DNA from: Micavibrio sp. TMED27
GTDB lineage: Bacteria; Pseudomonadota; Alphaproteobacteria; Micavibrionales; Micavibrionaceae
DNA: 41,240 bases
Reading direction: 5' to 3'
NCBI GenBank assembly: GCA_002167715.1
Contig: NHCG01000010.1
Location: 320,392-361,631 of the forward strand
The notes under the pieces were generated by a model, which worked only from the letters and a program-made list of their open reading frames with translations, did not search any database and was not told the origin of the DNA. Each line of letters opens with the position of its first letter. Position 1 is the stretch's first letter. Positions 1,691 to 39,280 of this stretch are shown here, piece by piece. A program made the position numbers and the translations under genes.

Positions 1691-3878
1691 TCTCAGATGG
1701 TTTTTTGAAGAGTTTTGCGCTTGCTTCTTTACCTGCATTCTCAACAATGGATCGGATTTCTTTTGGTAGATCTGCTCGCTTCATTTTCGCTCTTGGTGGA
1801 GCGGCTGGCTTTTCCGTTTGGCCATCTTTAAAGAAGTTCATAGGTGCGCCGCCACTTTGCTGTTGTCCTGCTGGCGGTGTAGGCGGTGCTACTGGTTCTT
1901 TAGATAGATCGTTATTAAGAGCGTGGACTTCGACCAGGGCGCAGATTCCTCTATCAACGCTGGCGATCTCTTTCTCTTTAACTTTACCAAAACCTTGAGC
2001 GATTGCATCTATTTCATCAGGTGTTTCTGCCTCTACATCAGCACGGCTTGCTCTCCATGATTTATTGACCATAAGATCGCGGAGCTTTGTAATAGAATCC
2101 GCATTTTTCATTAACTCATCATCTGTAGGTGGCAGAGAGAGGAAGCGTGTAACGCGCATAGCTTTCGCAAAGCCTGGGTTTGAATAAAACATGCCGCAAC
2201 TCACGACAGCTTCACCATATGTCACAACGGCTTGACCTTCTTTAAAGCCGCGAAGCTCTTCGTAGTTTGCTCTTGGTCGGGATTGTACGCCGGCCTGCTG
2301 TGTGTCGAGATAAGTCTTGGTTCCGCCTGACATCTGAAAGCCTGATACCTCTGTTACGAGTGCGGAGCCAACTGTTTTTTCGAAGAATTCTTTTGTTTCT
2401 GTTGGGTCTTCTAGTTTGCCGAAGATTTTAATGTTACAGTTCGCTGTAATAGAGTTTGCTTCTTCACGGACACGCTTTTTCATCGCAGGTAAGTCCTGAC
2501 CAGAGAAGATTAAGCAAAAACCAAGAGAACGTGCCTGCGCAGCCATAACAGCCATACCTTCGGCTGTATAGTAACCAACTTCGTCAAAAACAGTCATAAA
2601 TGGTGTTGAGGAGTGTGTCGGTTTGTTTTCAATCACAGTCGCTGAAGAGCCTTCAACGGTTGAGCCAAGTGCAGAGCCCATCATCCCCTTAATCGTTGCT
2701 GCCACGATTTTACCGAGGTTAGCGATCTCATCACCTGATTTCTCAAGCGCGGGGATGAGCACGATCAGAATGCGGCGGTTTAGAACAACATCAACCATGT
2801 CCACGTCTGCGGCTTGTGTGTCAAAAATATATCCATAGTCATCACCAAGAGACTGGAGTGATCTGGTGAACTGCATAGCTAGATAGCCATGCTGTTGACT
2901 TGCTGTTTGTGTGTCTGGTGGTGGTCCACCGCCTTCTGGTGGTTTTACATCACCGTTATCATCATAGGCGCTGGCAACAAAACCAGGAAGTGTTTCAAGG
3001 TAACCATTAATACCAGAGCGTATTTCTTCTGGTACAGCTTCGTCACGTGCGAGGCGAATAACACGGTTTAGTGAAAGGCTATCACGAAGGAGCTTTACAG
3101 AAAGCTGCATGTCTTGGTTGTCACGCTTCCATGTTAAGACAGGCATCATTGCAGATACAAGCGAGATCGCACGTTCTGCCCACATTGCGTTGTCACCGCC
3201 AGAATCAGGCATAAGGGATACAAGCATGTTCGTTAGATATGAAGCAGAACCGGATGAGAATGGGTTCATGGTGTTTGATGGCGCAGCAACATCTGAGTTA
3301 CCGGTCATGTAGTTCAAAACAAGTAGATCGTCATCACGGCCAAAACGACGAACGAGAGATGAGAGAGATGACCAAAGATCTGTATCCGCTTTACCATCAA
3401 CATAAACAAAGCCTGAGCCCCAAGCCATAGCGTTTGTCACTGTTGATTTTAGACCTTCTGTTTTACCTGCACCTGTTGTACCAAGGTATAGGATATGAGT
3501 TCTGGCATCTGAGTTCGTAAACCATACTTCTTCGTTAGTACGTTCAACATTACCCATATAAAGAATACCCTCAGCTTTTCCTGCTTTACCATTTCGGCCG
3601 TTATTCGGGTCTTTAAAACGAGCGCCGAGGGGGAGTTTAAATGCTAATTCTTTACTTCGTGTTTTAAGCCATAGAAAAAATAGTAGAAGACAGAGCATAA
3701 TGAGGTCTGCAAATGCAAAGGCCCATTCATTAAAGTAGATGCTTGCACCTGCCGTTAAGAAAACGGCTGCAGAGTAGTTTTTGCTAGCAAGTGCATCAGC
3801 AACCCTTACAAGTAAGGGGCGCACGTCCCGAAGCATTTTTTCGGGATTATGTTCGTACTTATGTTGATCAATTGCCAT
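1674..3878 (-). CDS. dotL: DotL/IcmO (TrbC-type) type IVB coupling protein ATPase
   Basis: A 734-aa inner-membrane ATPase that selects substrates and feeds them to the type IVB (Dot/Icm) transporter. Two hydrophobic segments lie at about residues 37-48 and 56-70. The Walker A motif GTTGAGKT is at 133-140 and Walker B FMTVFDEVGYY at about 427-437 (D432, E433). The length is close to Legionella DotL (about 780 aa). The C-terminal 100 residues are polar and Pro-rich (about 650-690), as in the DotL tail that binds adaptors in Legionella. The dotM-like gene lies upstream on the same strand, separated by one unknown gene; the downstream gene overlaps the 3' end. It could instead be the TrbC relative of a conjugation system; the sequence cannot separate the two. 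Confidence 0.9.
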   Translation of the reverse strand: MAIDQHKYEHNPEKMLRDVRPLLVRVADALASKNYSAAVFLTAGASIYFNEWAFAFADLIMLCLLLFFLWLKTRSKELAFKLPLGARFKDPNNGRNGKAGKAEGILYMGNVERTNEEVWFTNSDARTHILYLGTTGAGKTEGLKSTVTNAMAWGSGFVYVDGKADTDLWSSLSSLVRRFGRDDDLLVLNYMTGNSDVAAPSNTMNPFSSGSASYLTNMLVSLMPDSGGDNAMWAERAISLVSAMMPVLTWKRDNQDMQLSVKLLRDSLSLNRVIRLARDEAVPEEIRSGINGYLETLPGFVASAYDDNGDVKPPEGGGPPPDTQTASQQHGYLAMQFTRSLQSLGDDYGYIFDTQAADVDMVDVVLNRRILIVLIPALEKSGDEIANLGKIVAATIKGMMGSALGSTVEGSSATVIENKPTHSSTPFMTVFDEVGYYTAEGMAVMAAQARSLGFCLIFSGQDLPAMKKRVREEANSITANCNIKIFGKLEDPTETKEFFEKTVGSALVTEVSGFQMSGGTKTYLDTQQAGVQSRPRANYEELRGFKEGQAVVTYGEAVVSCGMFYSNPGFAKAMRVTRFLSLPPTDDELMKNADSITKLRDLMVNKSWRASRADVEAETPDEIDAIAQGFGKVKEKEIASVDRGICALVEVHALNNDLSKEPVAPPTPPAGQQQSGGAPMNFFKDGQTEKPAAPPRAKMKRADLPKEIRSIVENAGKEASAKLFKKPSENEEKK

Positions 3879-31630: not shown

Positions 31631-31760
31631 GCAAGTCATTGCCTTGAAGACTTGCGTGTTATAATGCGAACTGAGGGTAAAAGGCAAGTGTTAATTTAAA
31701 AAAAAATCAAAGTTTTTATATCTGTGAATATTTTTTGATGTCTTTGATGAAATTTTTAAG

Positions 31761-31788
31761 AAAAATGGTAGCGGTGGAGAGATTTGAA
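31761..31788. repeat. Left attachment repeat of the island (copy of the tRNA-Met 3' end)
   Basis: 28 bp identical to 39007-39034. Read on the minus strand, it is the last 23 nt of tRNA-Met(CAT), including CCA, plus five downstream T's. It is the duplicated target of integration and marks the left boundary of the genomic island. Confidence 0.9.
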
Positions 31789-32024
31789 ATCTCTTTTTAT
31801 ATCAATGACTTCCTTTAAAAACAATAACTTAGTATGCCTTTATTCCTATTAAAGGTACCACGTGTGTGTACCAGTTTTCAAGTCTTGTATGTTAGTGTAG
31901 ATAATGCATCTAAAGCCAGTTTTTTCTTGCCATTTACATTCTTGTTATTGGTGTATTTTCAGTTATTTTATTCATCCGTGTGGTACTTTCACATTATTTT
32001 TATATATTTATCTTTGGAATTCTC
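31789..32024. other. Non-coding island edge with 'gtaccagtt' repeat
   Basis: AT-rich sequence between the left attachment repeat and the acyltransferase start, without a credible gene. At 31861-31876 it carries CGTGTGTGTACCAGTT. A related copy (CGTGCGTACCAGTT) lies at 34063-34076, just beyond the integrase remnant. The start at 32025 gives the natural acyltransferase N-terminus; a frame from 31980 only adds a hydrophobic tail. Confidence 0.5.
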
Positions 32025-33974
32025 ATGAAAACATTTGATACAACCGTAAATGGGCTGAGGGCAATAGCAATATTATTGGTGATGGCTTTTCATTATGGGC
32101 TTGTCCCTTTTAGTGGAGGCTTTGTTGGTGTTGATGTTTTTTTTGTTATATCGGGATATGTTATTACACTCAGTGTTCTTGAGCGTTTAAGGACTAAGAG
32201 CTTTTCAATTCTAGGATATCTCAAAAGCCGTTTCTTTAGAATATTTCCAGCACTTTTATTTGTTAGTTTTTTTACCGTAATTGCCAGTGCTTTTATCCTA
32301 TTTCCATCTGATGCTTATCGTTCCGCTTGGCATGCATTATCTTCCATTTCTTTTGTTTCAAATTTTGTTTTCTGGAAGGAAATTGGGTATTTTGATGTTG
32401 ATAATGAGTTTAAGCCATTCCTTCATACGTGGTCATTATCTGTTGAGTGGCAGTTTTATCTTTTATGGCCAATTGCGATTTTTATCTTGATGCTTTTGAA
32501 GCGCTTTTCTATTCCTCTTCTCGTTTTAGGGATTATTGTAAGTGTCATAGCGTCTACTTTGCTTTCTAAATATTCTAATTTTGTTTTTTATATGATGCCT
32601 TTGCGCGGCTGGGAATTTGCTCTTGGTGCTTTGATTGCGTTTGTGCCTAGTGATAACGGGATTAGGAAGGGCTGGCCTATTCTATCTGTTTTGGGTGTTT
32701 TGGGGGTGTTTGCCGCCTCTTTGATATATGACGAGAACACGACGTTCCCTAGTTATACTGCTGCATTACCATGTGTGTCTGCATTTTTAATTTTGTTTTT
32801 TAATAGAAGATATATCGAGCCATTTTTCTCACTCACTATCTTTCAATATTTGGGTAATATATCTTATTCTCTTTATCTCTATCACTGGCCAGTATGGGTG
32901 TTGTACAAAAATGCCGTATATAGAGATTTGGGACTGTCAGATTTTGGTTTGATATTAGTGATTGTATTTTTACTATCTCATCTTTCGTACAAATATATTG
33001 AGCAACCTTATAGAGCTAGGAAACCTGAATCCGCTAAACGGCTTAGTTTTGTACTTGTGTGTGTTGTATTGCTTTGTTGCGGTGTGTCTTATTATATTAT
33101 TAAGACTGATGGGAAGACTGGGCGTTACGATAAAAGCGAAATTGCTTTAATTGATTATTTCAAAAATAAAAACGAAGCCTATCAAGAGAAGTATGGTGTC
33201 TTTTATCCTTTAACGCCGGACGAAAAGTGGTCTGCGGATAAGCATTTAAATATCCCATGCTTGTATGATGATTACGTGCTCAAGTCAGGTGATGACCCGA
33301 AAATTGTTGATCGTGTATTTTATAATAATTCTCTGCATGAGGACAAGCATGGCAGTTATCTAGTTATTGGTGATAGTAACGGTAAAAATGTATATGAAGC
33401 ACTATTATTAGCATTCCCTGATAAGGGGTTTAGTCTTTTAATGAATTCAGGGTGTGCTGCTGTAGAAGCGCAGAATTGTTTTCCTCATTTAAAAGAGCAG
33501 CTTCAGCTTTTATTCTCTAAGGCAGATATCAATGGGGTTATTTTAAGCTCACGGTATTCTTATCAATCAATAGAGGGGGTGGATACAATCGTGCAGTACC
33601 TTCGTGAAATCAATATGCCATTTCTTATCACTGGAGCTACTCCAATGCTTCGCCGTACTATAGATATGGTTATGTTACATAAGGGTGTTGGTTTAGGTGA
33701 AAAGTTTATTTTACCGCTTACAGGTACTTATTATCATCCTGACATATTTGAAAAAGACCTCGTGTTAGAGAAAGTTTCTCAAAATTATGAGGGGTATTTC
33801 TGGGATAAAAAAGCTGTGCTTTGCCCAGATAATCAATGTGTGCTGATGGATGAGGAGGAAGGGAGCCCGCTATATTTGGATACTCAGCACCTTAGTGATG
33901 TCGGTATAGAAAAACTGGTCGAGAATATGAGGAATAGTAATGCTTTTAAGAGATTCTTTGGCTCGCAGAACTGA
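32025..33974 (+). CDS. Acyltransferase-3 / SGNH fusion, surface-polysaccharide O-acyltransferase (OafA-like)
   Basis: 649 aa. Residues 1-350 form the acyltransferase-3 membrane domain with about ten helices. It opens with NGLRAIAILLVMAFHYG (H23 is the conserved His) and GGFVGVDVFFVISGYVI, and has FLHTWSLSVEWQFYLLWP. The periplasmic C-terminal SGNH domain shows GDSNGKN and the late catalytic pair in LDTQHLSDVG (DxxH). Known role: O-acetylation or similar modification of LPS O-antigen or other glycans. It is cargo of the island, near its left end. A changed surface could alter phage adsorption or immune recognition (inference). Confidence 0.93.
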   Translation: MKTFDTTVNGLRAIAILLVMAFHYGLVPFSGGFVGVDVFFVISGYVITLSVLERLRTKSFSILGYLKSRFFRIFPALLFVSFFTVIASAFILFPSDAYRSAWHALSSISFVSNFVFWKEIGYFDVDNEFKPFLHTWSLSVEWQFYLLWPIAIFILMLLKRFSIPLLVLGIIVSVIASTLLSKYSNFVFYMMPLRGWEFALGALIAFVPSDNGIRKGWPILSVLGVLGVFAASLIYDENTTFPSYTAALPCVSAFLILFFNRRYIEPFFSLTIFQYLGNISYSLYLYHWPVWVLYKNAVYRDLGLSDFGLILVIVFLLSHLSYKYIEQPYRARKPESAKRLSFVLVCVVLLCCGVSYYIIKTDGKTGRYDKSEIALIDYFKNKNEAYQEKYGVFYPLTPDEKWSADKHLNIPCLYDDYVLKSGDDPKIVDRVFYNNSLHEDKHGSYLVIGDSNGKNVYEALLLAFPDKGFSLLMNSGCAAVEAQNCFPHLKEQLQLLFSKADINGVILSSRYSYQSIEGVDTIVQYLREINMPFLITGATPMLRRTIDMVMLHKGVGLGEKFILPLTGTYYHPDIFEKDLVLEKVSQNYEGYFWDKKAVLCPDNQCVLMDEEEGSPLYLDTQHLSDVGIEKLVENMRNSNAFKRFFGSQN

Positions 33975-34058
33975 TTTTAAAGATTGTGGCACTCTTGAGC
34001 GGTAATAATATACCGCGCCACGCCTATATAAATTTGTGTGTCCAGACACTTTTTCCAT
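33960..34058 (-). pseudogene. Remnant of a second tyrosine recombinase (N-terminal DUF6538-like part only)
   Basis: The first about 33 codons from an ATG at 34058 read HTNLYRRGAVYYYRSRVPQSL, matching the N-terminal arm domain of phage integrases ('LyrRgg.YyfRrrvP..L'). The frame then runs antisense into the acyltransferase 3' end and loses similarity. The full integrase (about 350-400 aa) cannot fit, so this is a stump. It is clearly different from the intact P4-type integrase at 37.7-38.8 kb and points to a second, now immobile element. Confidence 0.65.
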
Positions 34059-34130
34059 ACCTCGTGCGTACCAGTTATGTGTACCAAAGGCAATTATAAG
34101 CTTCTGTAATTAAATAGGTTATTGATTTTA

Positions 34131-34158
34131 TTGGAAGAAAATTGGTAGGGAGGAGGGA
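34131..34158. repeat. Degenerate third attachment-like sequence
   Basis: TTGGAAGAAAAT followed by TGGTAGGGAGGAG resembles the right junction at 38999-39028 (TTGGAAGAAAAAA then TGGTAGCGGTGGAG). The first 11 bp are identical and most of the tRNA-end part matches. It lies 73 bp outside the start of the integrase remnant, as the intact attachment site does for the intact integrase. Confidence 0.4.
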
Positions 34159-34218
34159 CTATGAGTGATACATTAGTGCATTGATGTATAGTAATTATAC
34201 CTGTTCACGTTTATTTTG

Positions 34219-34238
34219 ATGCCCCCATTTATGCCCCC
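34219..34238. repeat. Integrase arm-type repeat pair, left side
   Basis: Two direct copies of ATGCCCCC separated by 4 bp (ATGCCCCCATTTATGCCCCC). The same unit with the same spacing style occurs beside the integrase start at 38841-38909. Repeats at both ends of an element are expected for integrase arm sites. Confidence 0.5.
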
Positions 34239-34241
34239 TAT

Positions 34242-34676
34242 TTATTCTTTATTAGTTTCTGTTTTTACCTTGGTATTTTTTTCGGTATTATTGCTGTGTA
34301 TAACAAGGTTATCAACTCTGGCGTTCATAGCTCTAAAGTCGTCAGCAACCCGATTTTCTAAATTTTGATATTTATCAAAAATATATTTGGATTCAGAGTT
34401 AATCGTTTCATTCAGTTTGGTTAGTTTGCTATCAAGGTGGATGTAGATAGTGGCGGCGAGGACTATAACAGTAAGTAACGCACCTACATACCTCCATAGA
34501 TTCTTAACATCGCTTTTTAGCTCAGCATGGTCAGAAGCGGGGGTATAGCTTTTATTAAACTTTTCCGTTTGTTCAGTAATCTGTTTTTGAACTTCTCTAT
34601 CAAGTTGCGATTTTAACGCGGGGGATACAGAAGGAGGCGCTGGAGGATAAATTGGCTGAGGGGTATCTTTACTCAC
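34242..34676 (-). CDS. Unknown membrane-anchored coiled-coil protein (island operon gene 3)
   Basis: 144 aa starting with GTG at 34676, overlapping the previous stop (GTGA). The Pro-rich N-terminus (QPIYPPAPPSVSPAL) precedes a charged helix (about 20-58). One membrane helix follows (about 64-80, YVGALLTVIVLAATIYIHL), then a long heptad-like helix (LTKLNETINSESKYIFDKYQNLENRVADDFRAM) and a polar tail. This resembles the general plan of phage or secretion-type membrane coiled-coil proteins, but no family is recognised. Confidence 0.65.
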   Translation of the reverse strand: MSKDTPQPIYPPAPPSVSPALKSQLDREVQKQITEQTEKFNKSYTPASDHAELKSDVKNLWRYVGALLTVIVLAATIYIHLDSKLTKLNETINSESKYIFDKYQNLENRVADDFRAMNARVDNLVIHSNNTEKNTKVKTETNKE

Positions 34677-34924
34677 AGTGCCCCCACTAACTTTGTAATA
34701 GCAAAATTTATTTCTTTAGAGTTATCGGATAATTCTAATGCTCTTTTTATGAGATCTTTGGAGATTTCTGTTATCTGCTCCTCTGATAAATCTCCAGCCT
34801 TAGCAGCAGCAATAAGGCTATCGGAAACCTCAAGGATTTCATTTGAAATTCTCAAGTCTTGCGCAGCATTTGAGCGAGCAAGAGAAAGTACCCTGTACCA
34901 ATCATTTTGAGTGTCTGCTGTCAT
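34673..34924 (-). CDS. Unknown small helical protein (island operon gene 2)
   Basis: 83 aa, all-helical and acidic (NEILEVSDSLIAAAKAGDLSEEQITEISKDLIKRALELSDNS), with no membrane segment. Start and stop overlap the neighbouring genes by 4 bp (ATGA at 34921-34924, GTGA at 34673-34676), so translation is coupled. No family is recognised. Confidence 0.65.
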   Translation of the reverse strand: MTADTQNDWYRVLSLARSNAAQDLRISNEILEVSDSLIAAAKAGDLSEEQITEISKDLIKRALELSDNSKEINFAITKLVGAL

Positions 34925-35310
34925 GATTTCTTTCTAAATTGAACGTCTATTGTGATTGGTCCTTGCTGGACTTGTGTGCGTAATATTAGTTCTTCGCCTA
35001 ATTTTGTTATTTTAACGATGCCACTGTAATTTTGCGGTTCTCTTGTCATGACCCCATTTGCATTCATTAACCCAACTGTGGGCGGGGTGTCTTTAGGGTC
35101 TAGTAAGGCTTTAAAGCTCATTTCTCCATTTTTAGGAGTGCTAAATTCAGCATTCCAAATAACTCCTAGAGCATCTACACCTGTTAAAGTGTTGTTTTCT
35201 ACTTTTGCTGAACCGAAACCTGGTTCATAGAAATTTTCAAGTTGGGGTGACGACGCGTATGTAACATCATACATTCCTTGTAAATCATCCAGTGTAATTT
35301 CTTGAGACAT
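34921..35310 (-). CDS. Unknown soluble protein (island operon gene 1)
   Basis: 129 aa, beta-rich (ENFYEPGFGSAKVENNTLTG, GVIWNAEFSTPKNGEMSFKA, SGIVKITKLGEELILRTQVQ, TIDVQFRKKS). It looks like a small beta-barrel or ligand-binding fold, without signal peptide. It is the first of three tightly overlapping genes; its leader runs back into the structured region at 35.39 kb. The function is unknown. Confidence 0.65.
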   Translation of the reverse strand: MSQEITLDDLQGMYDVTYASSPQLENFYEPGFGSAKVENNTLTGVDALGVIWNAEFSTPKNGEMSFKALLDPKDTPPTVGLMNANGVMTREPQNYSGIVKITKLGEELILRTQVQQGPITIDVQFRKKS

Positions 35311-35857
35311 TTTAAAACCTACTTATTTTGTATTCGAAGCCAGCATATACAAAAACTCCAAAAAATCTAGTTTTTGTGTTTATGGCGTCAGTCCGCACAT
35401 ATACGACAAGAGAACATATGTGCGGATATACCCCCTTCCGTCCCCCTAAAGGGGGAGACACACACTTCTATTACCATTTCTTTTTCATTTTCTGCATTAG
35501 CAGCCGTGAAAATTTGAACATTTCAATTCAGATGGGGCTTTGGTAGCAGAAGAGAAGTTCTTGCTTTTTTTACCATTAAAAAGCACTATCAGGATGAGTT
35601 TGCGTTTTCGCAAACTTGGGGCTTAGTAACCTCTCAATTACATGCGGCTGGCATCAGCCGTTAGTGATGCGTTTTCATTAAAGACGTAATCACAGGATGC
35701 CGCTCCTTCGGTCTTATGGCCGGGAGCGGCGGCTATGTCCAAGGCTCCGGCTCAAAGGCCGTCGGCCATTTGTCATGTGATTGATGGTTACTAACTCCCG
35801 GCTACCAAGAGGTTTTCTCTTGGTGGCCTGTTAGATTTTAAGGCTAAGGGGTGGTTT
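35311..35857. other. Divergent non-coding region rich in hairpins
   Basis: A 547-bp gap between two divergent island gene sets. It holds several perfect stems: TCCGCACATAT/ATATGTGCGGA (35392-35402 with 35416-35426), TCCCCC/GGGGGA (35441-35456), AGTTTGCG/CGCAAACT around TTTT (35597-35616), GCCGCTCC/GGAGCGGC (35699-35730) and a 12-bp stem at 35800-35828. Nested pairs link distant parts: TTGGTAGC 35540 with GCTACCAA 35801, TTAGTAACC 35623 with GGTTACTAA 35786, AATCACA 35688 with TGTGATT 35776. It could be a structured RNA, a leader of the + strand genes, or an origin-like DNA structure. Confidence 0.7.
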
Positions 35858-36106
35858 ATGACAGATCTTATCATACGATTTATGAATACGATTATAGGCT
35901 TTACAGCAGGAGCTTTTGTGATTGGTGGTGGGCTAATGGGTATGCTTTATGTTTTGGATGAAGATCCATTACTAATGATTTTTTATATCCCACTTGGATT
36001 AATTATTGGTTTAATTGCTGCTACTATTATTCTAGGTATTCCGTTACTGGCTTTACGGATAAATCAGAATCTTGAAGAAATTAATTCAAAAATAAAGGCC
36101 GATTAG
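35858..36106 (+). CDS. Small two-helix membrane protein, unknown
   Basis: 82 aa from the ATG at 35858, after AAGGGG. Two membrane helices (about 9-30, TIIGFTAGAFVIGGGLMGMLYV; about 40-65, IFYIPLGLIIGLIAATIILGIPLLA) face a short charged tail. No family is recognised. It lies 2 bp before the next gene on the same strand, so the two are one operon. Confidence 0.6.
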   Translation: MTDLIIRFMNTIIGFTAGAFVIGGGLMGMLYVLDEDPLLMIFYIPLGLIIGLIAATIILGIPLLALRINQNLEEINSKIKAD

Positions 36107-36108
36107 AA

Positions 36109-36408
36109 ATGAAGAAATCACAAATATTTTTTGTACTAGCATTCTTAATGCTAGGTTATTGGGCAACACATAATTATGACGTAAACGCCTCATGCTACGA
36201 CATTTTAGAAATAGGCAAACCGCTCCATGGCCCGATATTGCTTGATAAGTGCAAAGGCAGAACTTGGACGCTTGTTCAGGATGAAACTACTCTAACTCAG
36301 CTTGGGTATGTTTCAGATGATGGTGAAGATGAAGAAATAAATACGGTCGTCTGGACTAGAGTTCCCAGAGGTGGGGGAGTTATAACTTTTGGCGACAAAG
36401 ATAAATAA
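36109..36408 (+). CDS. Small exported/anchored protein, unknown
   Basis: 99 aa. The N-terminal hydrophobic segment KKSQIFFVLAFLMLGYWA can be a signal or anchor. A small domain with two Cys follows (ASCYDILEIGKPLHGPILLDKC), then an acidic loop. It is probably periplasmic. No family is recognised. It is convergent with the Cys-rich protein gene that ends at 36410. Confidence 0.6.
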   Translation: MKKSQIFFVLAFLMLGYWATHNYDVNASCYDILEIGKPLHGPILLDKCKGRTWTLVQDETTLTQLGYVSDDGEDEEINTVVWTRVPRGGGVITFGDKDK

Positions 36409-36409
36409 A

Positions 36410-36619
36410 CTATTTTAAGCGTTGAGCTGCAGCTTGTTTTTGCTCATTAGTCATCTTCCTTTTGTGAAAAGGGTTCTTACCCATGCGATAAGGCCATAAG
36501 TCGCAGTCTTTAGCTGCACACTTTTGAACTTCTGAGTATTTGCCAGCACAGCAGTCGATACATTTTTTTCGTATGACCTTTAATAGAGGCTTTTTTGTGT
36601 GACCGTGTAAATCTTCCAT
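36410..36619 (-). CDS. Small Cys-rich mobile-element protein
   Basis: 69 aa from the ATG at 36619, which follows GAGGGA by 6 nt and avoids the 43-bp overlap the longer frame would have with alpA. The motif KKCIDCCAGKYSEVQKCAAKDCDLWPYRMGKNPF, with five Cys and a terminal basic tail, is a recurrent small protein of phages and integrated elements and is likely to bind zinc. It has no assigned function. It is second in the alpA operon, 14 bp after alpA. Confidence 0.7.
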   Translation of the reverse strand: MEDLHGHTKKPLLKVIRKKCIDCCAGKYSEVQKCAAKDCDLWPYRMGKNPFHKRKMTNEQKQAAAQRLK

Positions 36620-36633
36620 GTTTGTTCCCTCAG

Positions 36634-36843
36634 CTAAGAAGCGATCGACCGTTGATTGATACGATCTTGCATCCACGCGTCTATTTCACTCTCTAGCCAT
36701 CCGACAGAGCGAGCGCCTAAGTTGATGTTTGCTGGAAACTTGCCTTCACTTATGCTGAGATAAATAGAACTTCGGCTCAAACCAGTACGCGCCATAACGT
36801 CTGTTAATCTCAGGAAGCGTTCTTTTTTAGGTGTGTCTAACAT
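36634..36843 (-). CDS. AlpA-family regulator
   Basis: 69 aa, with FLRLTDVMARTGLSRSSIYLSISEGKFPANINLGARSVGWLESEIDAWMQDR, the AlpA/MerR-like excisionase fold. Known role: activation of integrase or excision in P4-like and CP4-type elements. It lies in the same island, about 850 bp from the integrase, on the same strand. The ATG follows AAAGGA by 5 nt. Confidence 0.9.
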   Translation of the reverse strand: MLDTPKKERFLRLTDVMARTGLSRSSIYLSISEGKFPANINLGARSVGWLESEIDAWMQDRINQRSIAS

Positions 36844-36943
36844 TTGTATCCTTTCTATGTTTGTCCAAGTGGATACAAATATTTTTAATAGAATTTAGGC
36901 TGTCGCCATAAAGATGATGGAAGGAAAATTCCTTTCAGAAAAA

Positions 36944-37666
36944 TTAGGAAATTTTCTGATCGTGGCGCTCTTTGTGTGTTTCTTTAATAGCAGTTTCTAT
37001 TTGAGAGATTGTGACATTCGGGTCTATAGGTTCAATAATGAATTTTAGCAGCTCAGAATCGCCTATTTCTCTTTTCGATATGTATTCGCCTTTGTGGTAA
37101 CGGCTTTGTTGAAACTTGTGGCCTATAATTTTTTCCAATAGGCGTTCAATTGAAATCACCCAATGATTAAGAGTGTTGCTCTTTTTAAAGCTTCGAAATC
37201 TACTATATTCAAGCGAACGCTTAATGGAATCTGAAATTACTGACAATAATTGCATTGTCTTAGTCGGCGCATCGGTTTTATTGAATCCAAAATGCTTTTC
37301 ATCTCTTATTTCAGGCAAGAACCCCATTAATGAGGGATAATGAAATTTAATTTGCTCATAAAAACCATTAACCAATTCGTTACTGAAATTTTCAGATTGA
37401 AAAACTTTGTCTAATGAAGACTCAGCTTTTTCTATGTGTTGAAGTGCTTTTTCAAGCTCTTCTTTTATTTTATGGGGAGGCAATGAATCGTAAAAATTAT
37501 AACCGCGTATGTAGCTTCTTGCTGATACAGAAATTTGTTTCTCTAGTTCTACTTTCAAGCTGTGGTCTTCAATATCCAAAATATTGAACAGTTCATCAAA
37601 AAATTCAGAAGAATATGACTTTTCATTTCCAAGTGGCTTGATGGCTTGAGTTTCTGCTTTTGTCAT
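36944..37666 (-). CDS. Unknown protein translationally coupled to the integrase
   Basis: 240 aa from the ATG at 37666, which overlaps the integrase stop as ATGA (37666-37663); a longer frame from 37702 is less likely. It is a soluble, helix-rich protein (EELEKALQHIEKAESSLDKVF, KTMQLLSVISDSIKRSLEYSRF, HWVISIERLLEKIIGH). No family is recognised. Tight coupling to int suggests a role linked to the element, either in its transfer or as cargo. Confidence 0.65.
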   Translation of the reverse strand: MTKAETQAIKPLGNEKSYSSEFFDELFNILDIEDHSLKVELEKQISVSARSYIRGYNFYDSLPPHKIKEELEKALQHIEKAESSLDKVFQSENFSNELVNGFYEQIKFHYPSLMGFLPEIRDEKHFGFNKTDAPTKTMQLLSVISDSIKRSLEYSRFRSFKKSNTLNHWVISIERLLEKIIGHKFQQSRYHKGEYISKREIGDSELLKFIIEPIDPNVTISQIETAIKETHKERHDQKIS

Positions 37667-38847
37667 GATGCCCTCAATTTGTCGAGGTGGTCTGCCCACC
37701 ATTGCATCATTTGGCGGCGTTCGTCCAAATATTGGGCGTGGTTGTAGGAGGCCCTGACTTTGTTGTTATCTTGCCGTGATTGTTGAGCTTCGATGGCATC
37801 GGGGTTGAAACCGTGTTCGTTGAGGATGGTGGAGGCTGTGCCTCTCATGCCGTGGACTGTTAACTTGCTTTTGTAGCCCAAGCGGTAGAGGGCGCGGGTC
37901 ATTGTGCCGCTGCTCATAACGCTGCGTGGATTGCGCTTTTGCGGGAAGACGTATTCGAATACGCCGTTCATGCTTTTTAGTTCTTTTAGGATTTCCATTG
38001 ATTGCCTTGATAACGGCACAACGTGGGGCTTATTCATTTTCATGCGCTCGGCAGGGATGCGCCATTCGGAACGATCAAAGATAAATTCATCCCATCGGGC
38101 TTCACGTAGCTCTGTGTGGCGAATGAATACTAGCATCATAAGTTTGAGGGCAAGCTTGGTTTGTTTTTCACCGTCGAAGTTTTCAACGGCGCGGAGGTAT
38201 TCGGGGAGGTCGTACTCTTCAAGGTGGGGGTTATGTTTTACTTCCTGCCTTAGAAGGATGTCTCTGGGTTTGATGTGCAGCGCCACGTTGCGATCTGTAA
38301 TTTCTTCGACAACGGCATAATCAAGAACGCGTTTGATATTTTGGTATGCGCGTTTGGCTATATCGAGTGCGCCACTATCTTCGATGCGTTGGACACAGCG
38401 AATAACATCTTTCGGGGTAATGGTTGCAACTGGGTATTTGCCTAGGAATGGGAAGACGTGCATTTCAATTCTGCGCCATGTTTTAACAGCGTGAGTTTCT
38501 TTCCATGTTTGGCGTTGTCTTGCGTACCATTGCTCGGCAACGGATTGGAATGTGTGTTCAGCATCTTTAAAGACTTGCTGCTTTAGTTTTTGCTTTTCGT
38601 GTGAGGGGTCTTTGTTGTCTTTGAGAAGGGCTTTGGCTTCAGCTCTCATTTCTCGTGCTTGTGCTAGTGATACATCGGGATATACGCCAATGGCGAGGCG
38701 TTTTTCTTTTCCAGCGAAGCGATATTTCATGCGCCAATATTTTGAGCCGTTAGGCATGACCTCAAGATACATGCCTTGACCATCGGCTTTGCGATAGGCT
38801 TTTTCTTGTGGTTTGGCGTTTTTACAATCTATCTGCGTTAGGGGCAT
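37663..38847 (-). CDS. int: P4-type tyrosine integrase of the island
   Basis: 394 aa: N-terminal arm-binding domain (DUF4102, 'KADGQGMYLEVMPNGSKYWRM', 'RLAIGVYPDVSLAQARE'), core-binding domain (about 97-185) and catalytic domain with R248 (TELREARW), H332 and R335 (VHGMRGTAST) and Y368 (RASYNHAQYL). The family's box-II His in 'QLAH' or 'QLSH' is here R358 (EAQQSRQD). The ATG at 38847 lies inside an ATGCCCC-type repeat, suggesting self-regulation. It lies 160 bp inside the intact tRNA-Met. Confidence 0.93.
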   Translation of the reverse strand: MPLTQIDCKNAKPQEKAYRKADGQGMYLEVMPNGSKYWRMKYRFAGKEKRLAIGVYPDVSLAQAREMRAEAKALLKDNKDPSHEKQKLKQQVFKDAEHTFQSVAEQWYARQRQTWKETHAVKTWRRIEMHVFPFLGKYPVATITPKDVIRCVQRIEDSGALDIAKRAYQNIKRVLDYAVVEEITDRNVALHIKPRDILLRQEVKHNPHLEEYDLPEYLRAVENFDGEKQTKLALKLMMLVFIRHTELREARWDEFIFDRSEWRIPAERMKMNKPHVVPLSRQSMEILKELKSMNGVFEYVFPQKRNPRSVMSSGTMTRALYRLGYKSKLTVHGMRGTASTILNEHGFNPDAIEAQQSRQDNNKVRASYNHAQYLDERRQMMQWWADHLDKLRAS

Positions 38848-38909
38848 GTGGGGGCATTTCTTTTGGTGAAAATTCCTTATGCCCCCAAATGTGCCCCTTT
38901 ATGCCCCCA
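38841..38909. repeat. Integrase arm-type repeats at the int promoter
   Basis: Inverted copies GGGGCATGTGGGGGCAT (38841-38857) and direct copies ATGCCCCC, TGTGCCCC, ATGCCCCC (38879-38909) face each other around 38868. The int start codon is inside the first. Similar units lie at 34219-34238. The pattern suits binding of the arm domain and autorepression. Confidence 0.55.
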
Positions 38910-39006
38910 GATGTCAATAAATTTGCTGGGATGCCTGTGGATCAAGCGCATCTCGTAACCCTTGTTTTTCAAGGTGTTTTGGACGTTCCGGGATTTCGTT
39001 GGAAGA

Positions 39007-39034
39007 AAAAATGGTAGCGGTGGAGAGATTTGAA
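39007..39034. repeat. Right attachment repeat of the island, in tRNA-Met
   Basis: 28 bp identical to 31761-31788, covering the last 23 nt of tRNA-Met plus five adjacent bases. Being in the intact tRNA, this copy shows that the element restored the gene on insertion. Confidence 0.9.
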
Positions 39035-39087
39035 CTCCCGACACAAGGATTATGATTCCTCTGCTCTAACCCCTGAGCTACACCGCC
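39012..39087 (-). tRNA. tRNA-Met(CAT), island target
   Basis: On the minus strand GGCGGTG pairs with CACCGCT, the discriminator is A and CCA is encoded. The anticodon loop ATCATAA gives CAT. The acceptor has a normal paired first position (here G1-U72) and the D-arm is elongator-like, so it is not initiator tRNA. An Ile2 (lysidine) identity cannot be fully excluded. Confidence 0.92.
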
Positions 39088-39280
39088 ACGTGTGATAGGG
39101 CAAATTTAAGTCGCTTATATGGCTTTTTTATAGTGCACTTGTCAAGCCTTATGCGCTGTTTCATCCAAAAAAATATTTAAGAAAATTGAAATGTTGCATT
39201 GCGTCACAGTGCCTTAGTGTACTTAGCTCTCATACGCGCTATAATATTAGTATGGCTTAAAAAAATGGAGATTCAAATAT

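Follow-up and report, generated by a model that had tools for sequence, protein, structure and literature searches.

In a 41,240-nt stretch of DNA from Micavibrio sp. TMED27 (the window; positions 320392-361631 of contig C2 of genome G000, an assembly of 2.5 Mb in 22 contigs), we examined integrated DNA at the 3′ end of a tRNA-Met(CAT) gene and identified within it a structured RNA that we read as a transferable leader. With moderate confidence, we favour a reading in which two elements, termed E1 (nearer the tRNA) and E2, are stacked at this gene, and in which the RNA of E1 is the leader of the gene downstream, attenuation being its likeliest mechanism. The RNA is related to sRNA-Xcc1 (Rfam RF02221), and what has been filed as a trans-acting small RNA (sRNA) family appears here to be the core part of a longer RNA with a pseudoknot, placed in front of unrelated accessory genes. 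The corrected ends of the island mainly mend the map, and the RNA is of greater importance.

The RNA (Table 1) had a folding z-score of -8.4 on the plus strand and -7.3 on the minus strand. An alignment of 27 copies (A2) was used for structure prediction; four sequences (L222, L246, L253 and L088) were dropped before A2 and one (L247) earlier. RNAalifold predicted 45 pairs, with compensatory changes in 29 of them. In the pair count, 95.7% of cells were paired, compared with 83.0% in shuffles and 28-53% when partners were slid, and none of 500 shuffles reached any of five measures. These controls are biased towards the structure, since A2 was also the alignment from which it was predicted. Of 1196 cells, 142 were G-U and 13 were A-C, which indicates that the plus strand is the selected RNA. 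Loops such as AUGUCCA were conserved as well as stems. The most striking feature was a long-range pseudoknot helix, in which GGCCGGGAG in the middle of the RNA pairs with CUCCCGGCC near the 3′ end. All 27 aligned copies can form this helix with 9-11 contiguous pairs (0/2000 shuffles as good), and at least six contiguous pairs were found in all 32 short excerpts from copies outside A2 (0/2000 shuffles; five antisense matches were dropped before this count). The outer P1 extension was weak (7/2000 shuffles). The upper P4 helix was tried as a third covarying switch partner and rejected as unsupported (168/2000 shuffles).

The 3′ strand of the pseudoknot overlaps about five pairs in the lower stem of the terminator-like hairpin (helix 9), and this overlap suggests an antitermination switch. 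In the proposed mechanism, the RNA would sit as a 5′ leader 25 nt before the gene for a small hydrophobic protein, with its 5′ domain and long-range pseudoknot preceding the hairpin. When the pseudoknot forms, the hairpin would be weakened and the downstream gene read; when it does not form, a short RNA would be released. The RNA is therefore possibly a transcription attenuator, a mechanism that we infer from its anatomy, and the same anatomy is compatible with a released short RNA acting elsewhere. Like riboswitches and attenuators, it has a structured 5′ leader, a terminator-like hairpin before the ribosome-binding site (RBS) and a competing helix that overlaps the hairpin stem; the features expected of that class, a covarying leader fold and a terminator-like hairpin upstream of a gene, were both found. 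Unlike them, it precedes diverse accessory genes rather than those of one pathway, and is known here from sequence alone.

Leader position was assessed in 62 copies. When any start codon and a length of 40 or more amino acids (aa) were accepted (loose rule), all 62 had a same-strand open reading frame (ORF) downstream, 61 of which start within 41 nt and one at 111 nt. When an ATG, an RBS-like motif and a start no more than 45 nt away were all required (strict rule), an ORF was found downstream of 50 of the 62 copies, on the other side of 1/59, and at 167 of 5000 random positions (3%). The downstream ORFs more often had hydrophobic N-termini than control ORFs (38/62 versus 55/174; Fisher P = 7e-5), a comparison in which the rule is crude and the control ORFs are longer and come from partly different loci. 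By eye, the downstream products are diverse: lipoprotein-like, barrel-like, small, HNH-like and methyltransferase-like. In two relatives of E1 (L216 and L220), the RNA stands before lipoprotein-like genes.

No RF02221 match was reported by Rfam for the window copy, for which tRNAs were the only matches at E ≤ 1. RF02221 did match relatives of the RNA over model positions 1-87, with 27.4-43.3 bits, below the gathering cut-off of 53. Such matches were obtained in 5 of 20 loci (E ≤ 0.5), in all eight loci picked from the shorter forms (E ≤ 1) and in 8 of 11 (E ≤ 0.5), with L241, L243 and L249 counted in both the 20-locus and the 8-locus sets. The closing stem of RF02221 corresponds to the pseudoknot helix. 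When a plasmid collection was searched for the RF02221 consensus, four records were returned, and the three that were opened all scored above the cut-off (72.6, 71.6 and 69.7 bits). One of these, from Aeromonas caviae (L309), matched both models: RF02221 with 71.6 bits, and R1, our model of the RNA, over its whole length with 24.6 bits (E = 1e-7). R1 missed the other two, the accepted RF02221 members L307 and L308. We class the RNA as a relative of sRNA-Xcc1 in extended form, not as a filed RF02221 member. The two are alike in that the 87-nt model aligns full length to the 3′ part of the RNA's relatives and in their mobile setting; they differ in that the RNA described here has an additional 5′ domain, totals ~170-235 nt and is treated as a leader. 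Excerpts of the sRNA-Xcc1 literature place sRNA-Xcc1 upstream of symE in the integron cassette that is most widespread in Xanthomonas (PMC12444791), and report seven homologues in Xylella fastidiosa Temecula1, five of them clustered in a genomic island (PMC12189769). In the portions available of two further papers (PMC4909258 and PMC8876359), sRNA-Xcc1 is named in the reference lists only. No leader or attenuator label for sRNA-Xcc1 or RF02221 appears in the titles or abstract openings of the papers listed for either, which is not proof of absence.

Besides the E1 copy, the source genome has two further copies of the RNA. One of these, at C13:6830, has an integrase 4 kb away and stands before a lipoprotein-like gene that resembles the gene after the RNA in L251. 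The surrounding stretch of the same contig (L284 1427-11365) holds an integrase, large unknown ORFs, the RNA copy with its lipoprotein-like gene and a tRNA-Pro, and is probably a further element. A blastn search (E ≤ 0.01) with window positions 35380-35870 gave matches in 61 of the order's 142 genomes; the RNA part accounts for the majority of these, though not for every one. R1 detected the RNA in 103 of the 142 (E ≤ 0.001), with up to 10 matches per genome. Among 385 genomes sampled from the class, R1 found it in 48 (E ≤ 1e-6); these 48 include the source genome and two family members, and the other 45 are labelled only as the same class. The RNA was also present in 5 of 80 named loci with related integrases (L065, L083, L088, L095 and L096), as well as in L216, L220 and L222. 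Metagenome-assembled genomes titled Gammaproteobacteria and Sphingobacteriales are among those five of the 80, so misbinning is possible. The list used for integrase proximity held 77 copies (the R1 matches listed for G000-G056 plus three added copies), of which 21 lay within 15 kb of a match to a P4-type integrase, where ~3% would be expected. Two of the 21 (in G005 and G008) rest on blastn alone, that of G005 adjoining an integrase fragment, and without them the count is 19/75. The window RNA had no blastn match at E 0.001 in plasmid and phage collections, and an exact 19-nt core pattern was absent from viral contigs.

Two other explanations of the RNA were weighed against the leader reading. 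It may be a self-standing gene for a trans-acting sRNA that lies beside other genes by chance, as reported for sRNA-Xcc1, which according to excerpts of one paper was cloned as a separate 88-nt sRNA with mapped ends and a band near 100 nt (PMC2996969). The terminator-like hairpin at the end of the RNA would suit such a gene. Against it speak the strict-rule ORF counts (50/62 downstream, 1/59 on the other side) and two annotated plasmid records in which a same-strand coding sequence (start at 3118) lies 38 and 46 nt past an above-threshold RF02221 match; the third opened record has no annotated feature after its match. We regard the sRNA-gene explanation as possible but doubtful. The other is that the unit acts as folded single-stranded DNA, a recombination site like the attC of integrons that moves its neighbour gene as a cassette. 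Its place beside unrelated small genes, the two copies ~280 bp apart in G029 and the occurrence of sRNA-Xcc1 in integron cassettes, according to excerpts of PMC12444791, would fit. This is very improbable and was rejected, mainly on the excess of G-U over A-C cells, which indicates that one strand is selected as RNA; the conserved loops, and a hairpin with a short gap to the start codon as befits a leader, also speak against it. Several points weigh against the leader reading itself: the separate 88-nt sRNA reported for sRNA-Xcc1, the weak T tract of the window copy's own hairpin, the absence of a clear promoter before the RNA (2 in 35300-36000 versus 1.5 expected by chance) and the fact that most copies are not near a P4-type integrase.

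A wider proposal, which we advance tentatively and with less confidence than the leader reading, is that transferable regulatory leaders of this kind are a widespread class, of which sRNA-Xcc1 is the known short form. Such leaders would travel with mobile accessory genes, many of which encode exported or membrane proteins, and would switch them by pseudoknot-controlled antitermination on one shared cellular signal. If it is true that acquired genes have such a common switch, this would suggest how the host gains control of mobile cargo, and the idea can be tested specifically.

The sequence-only reading of the window had proposed a single island bracketed by a 28-bp direct repeat, with one copy within tRNA-Met(CAT) and the other free. 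The repeat was as described, with 28 of 28 nt identical between 31761-31788 and 39007-39034 (30/31 over 31 nt). An exact 28-mer match in 41 kb is beyond chance expectation, and the stretch 31700-39200 is present once in its own genome. The integrase and alpA between the repeat copies were both confirmed by Pfam (the latter as Phage_AlpA), and the integrase adjoins the intact tRNA, starting ~165 bp from its 3′ end. In two congeners with tRNA-Met beside acsA (G001 and G004), homology to the window starts at 39007 and 39008, i.e. at the repeat. Neither core genes inside nor relatives with the same genes but without the repeat were seen. Integrative DNA at the tRNA 3′ end was thus upheld, but the idea that the two 28-bp copies are both ends of one element was not supported: a DUF6538 integrase stub, the place of a distal pair of arm-like motifs and a third attachment (att)-like site speak against it.

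From the layout of these features, two elements joined at ~34150 are probably present rather than one island. TGCCCCC motifs lie between the integrase gene and the tRNA (38850, reverse; 38880; 38902), as a distal pair (34220 and 34232) and at 34679, and none was found near 31761 by motif scan. We take TGCCCCC and GTACCA to be putative integrase arm sites. TGCCCCC clusters occurred in 31 of 80 loci with related integrases, mostly just before the integrase gene. Distal pairs 12 bp apart were checked in seven elements (the spacing in L066 was left out, and the pair in L126 was found by eye with one copy minus a base), and an exact 12-17-nt tRNA-end repeat lay 59-76 bp from the pair in six of them (L085, L090, L095, L117, L125 and L126). 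This spacing predicts an end of E1 at ~34150-34167. In agreement, when the window was compared with the att region on the tRNA side, 34124-34164 ranked third (local score 44; known copies 110 and 62; next 34), with a score reached by none of 200 shuffles of the island interior (highest 36). GATTTTATTGGAAG and GGAGGAGGGACT occur both at this site and at the tRNA-Met junction of L062, an element with an integrase 70% identical to that of E1. GATTTTATTGGAAG lies outside the tRNA, and similar words occur beside the tRNA in L218, L219 and at the window's own right end.

We propose that E2 (31761 to ~34150) inserted first, an order that we infer from the layout, its sole basis. E2 would have brought an AT3-SGNH acyltransferase and a DUF6538 integrase that is now a stub, and E1 (~34150 to 39034) would then have entered the restored tRNA end via its P4-type integrase. 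An E1 attP core with a slightly different tRNA T-arm could explain why the internal att is degenerate but the outer copy nearly perfect. Stacked islands at one tRNA are familiar. Stacking is also seen in Photorhabdus tasmaniensis L126 (9752-17400), where a P4-type element in tRNA-Leu ends in a 17-nt tRNA-end repeat and another integrase-like stretch comes directly after it. The alternative, that the P4-type integrase moved all of 31761-39034 as one element and that the internal site and DUF6538 stub are old debris, draws on the outer copies being the best-matched pair (30/31), which could still recombine, and on an integrase in the expected place. We consider it unlikely, since 2.4 kb separate the distal arm-like pair from 31761, whereas the internal site is ~60 bp away from it, as in six of seven other elements, and separate GTACCA motifs flank the left part. 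The stacked layout has its own difficulties: a near-perfect tRNA copy exists at 31761, yet the end predicted from the arm pair is degenerate; the tRNA part of the internal site alone is marginal (its score was equalled or exceeded in 7/500 shuffles of the surrounding 150 nt); the similarity there reaches sequence outside the tRNA, a poor fit to a simple insertion order; L113, among the seven elements checked, has no tRNA-end repeat near its pair; and the sister element in G021 showed no repeat of tRNA-Cys at its distal end.

Beyond the tRNA 3′ end, the DNA of G001 and G004 differs from the window's left flank, and a strict empty site was therefore not found. No genome was syntenic on both sides (acsA was compared in 57 genomes, and the tRNA flank plus the left-flank gene in seven genomes of the genus). 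Other tRNA-Met inserts occur in the family, in G030 (16.8 kb, 37-nt exact repeat) and G078 (11 kb, 48-nt repeat, 98%). Several family members also have a second full or partial tRNA-Met copy within ~200 bp of the intact gene (e.g. L222 1067-1115 and L223 606-678), perhaps as old insertion scars. The E1 set of integrase, 252-aa protein, alpA and 88-aa ORF recurs as a group in G050, at tRNA-Gln (34-nt repeat, 94%), and in G107, at tRNA-Phe; G088 has all but the integrase near a contig start. A 51-nt noncoding stretch before the window RNA (35428-35478) is 88% identical to L218 8712-8760, in the tRNA-Gln sister element. The 129/83/144-aa trio has relatives with 74, 71 and 34% identity as distal cargo of the G021 element at tRNA-Cys, which has a related integrase; there the trio is followed by genes that by eye resemble yceD-rpmF.

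Table 1. Features at the tRNA-Met(CAT) gene (window coordinates)
Feature	Position	Strand	Basis or remark
tRNA-Met(CAT), target gene	39012..39087	-	ARAGORN; Rfam tRNA 63.2 bits
att copy in tRNA 3′ end, right end of E1	39007..39037	.	direct repeat, 30/31 vs 31761-31791
TGCCCCC arm-like motifs, integrase side	38850..38908	.	motif scan
P4-type tyrosine integrase (E1)	37663..38847	-	Pfam; phrog_1 integrase
252-aa protein, beside alpA in sister elements too	36944..37702	-	no family match
AlpA-type regulator	36634..36843	-	Pfam PF05930, E 1.6e-22
88-aa ORF, kept in sister elements	36410..36676	-	no family match above cut-off
99-aa ORF after 82-aa gene	36109..36408	+	relative after RNA in L220
82-aa hydrophobic protein gene, start 25 nt past RNA	35858..36106	+	
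Structured RNA, sRNA-Xcc1 relative	35616..35832	+	R1 model 197 bits
Terminator-like hairpin at RNA 3′ end (helix 9), weak T tract	35800..35828	+	
129-aa protein, predicted calycin-like barrel	34921..35310	-	
83-aa and 144-aa ORFs; trio with 129-aa gene, kept in G021 element	34242..34924	-	
TGCCCCC arm-like pair, 12 bp apart, distal side of E1	34220..34238	.	motif scan; 28-nt match to distal arms of Photorhabdus element
Degenerate third att-like site, proposed E2/E1 junction	34124..34164	.	local alignment, shuffles, arm-pair spacing
DUF6538 integrase stub, 39 residues (E2)	33942..34058	-	Pfam PF20172, E 4.4e-7
AT3-SGNH acyltransferase, E2 cargo	31980..33974	+	Pfam PF01757, PF19040
Free att copy, outer (left) end of E2	31761..31791	.	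direct repeat

In the minus-strand ORF that holds the stub (33870-34058), the first 39 residues resemble the N-terminus of a DUF6538 integrase, after which the frame continues into the acyltransferase gene at its 3′ end. GTACCA motifs lie on either side of the acyltransferase (31855/31868 and 34068/34081), among ten in the window. The G+C content is 36% for E2, and 41% for both E1 and the left flank. A source for E2 was not found: the best relative of the acyltransferase in the 142 genomes was 51% identical (G005), and the stub had no good match in the loci examined, including the G005 acyltransferase locus with 1.5-kb flanks.

The E1 integrase has Arm-DNA-bind_3 (PF13356), Phage_int_M (PF22022) and Phage_integrase (PF00589) domains, all above cut-off. 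In these domains, its place at a tRNA 3′ end, AlpA, the tRNA-end repeat and arm-like motif pairs on both sides, E1 resembles P4-type tRNA-targeting elements with AlpA; it differs in being small and stacked with a second element that has an integrase stub. Primase/replication, capsid-remodelling, packaging or transfer genes were not recognised among ten proteins with Pfam and PHROGs, and E1 thus lacks recognisable forms of the replication and packaging genes that define a satellite like P4 or the phage-inducible chromosomal islands (PICI). PADLOC on eight cargo proteins gave a marginal match to the 83-aa ORF (E 0.0095) and no other. The 252-aa protein was found in 4 of 142 genomes, its own included. 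For the 129-aa protein, a structural model (predicted local distance difference test score, pLDDT, 88.7) gave an eight-stranded barrel, with no PDB match at E ≤ 0.001 and lipocalin-like folds nearest. Relatives of this protein, most of them 20-28% identical to it, were present in 56 of the order's 142 genomes.

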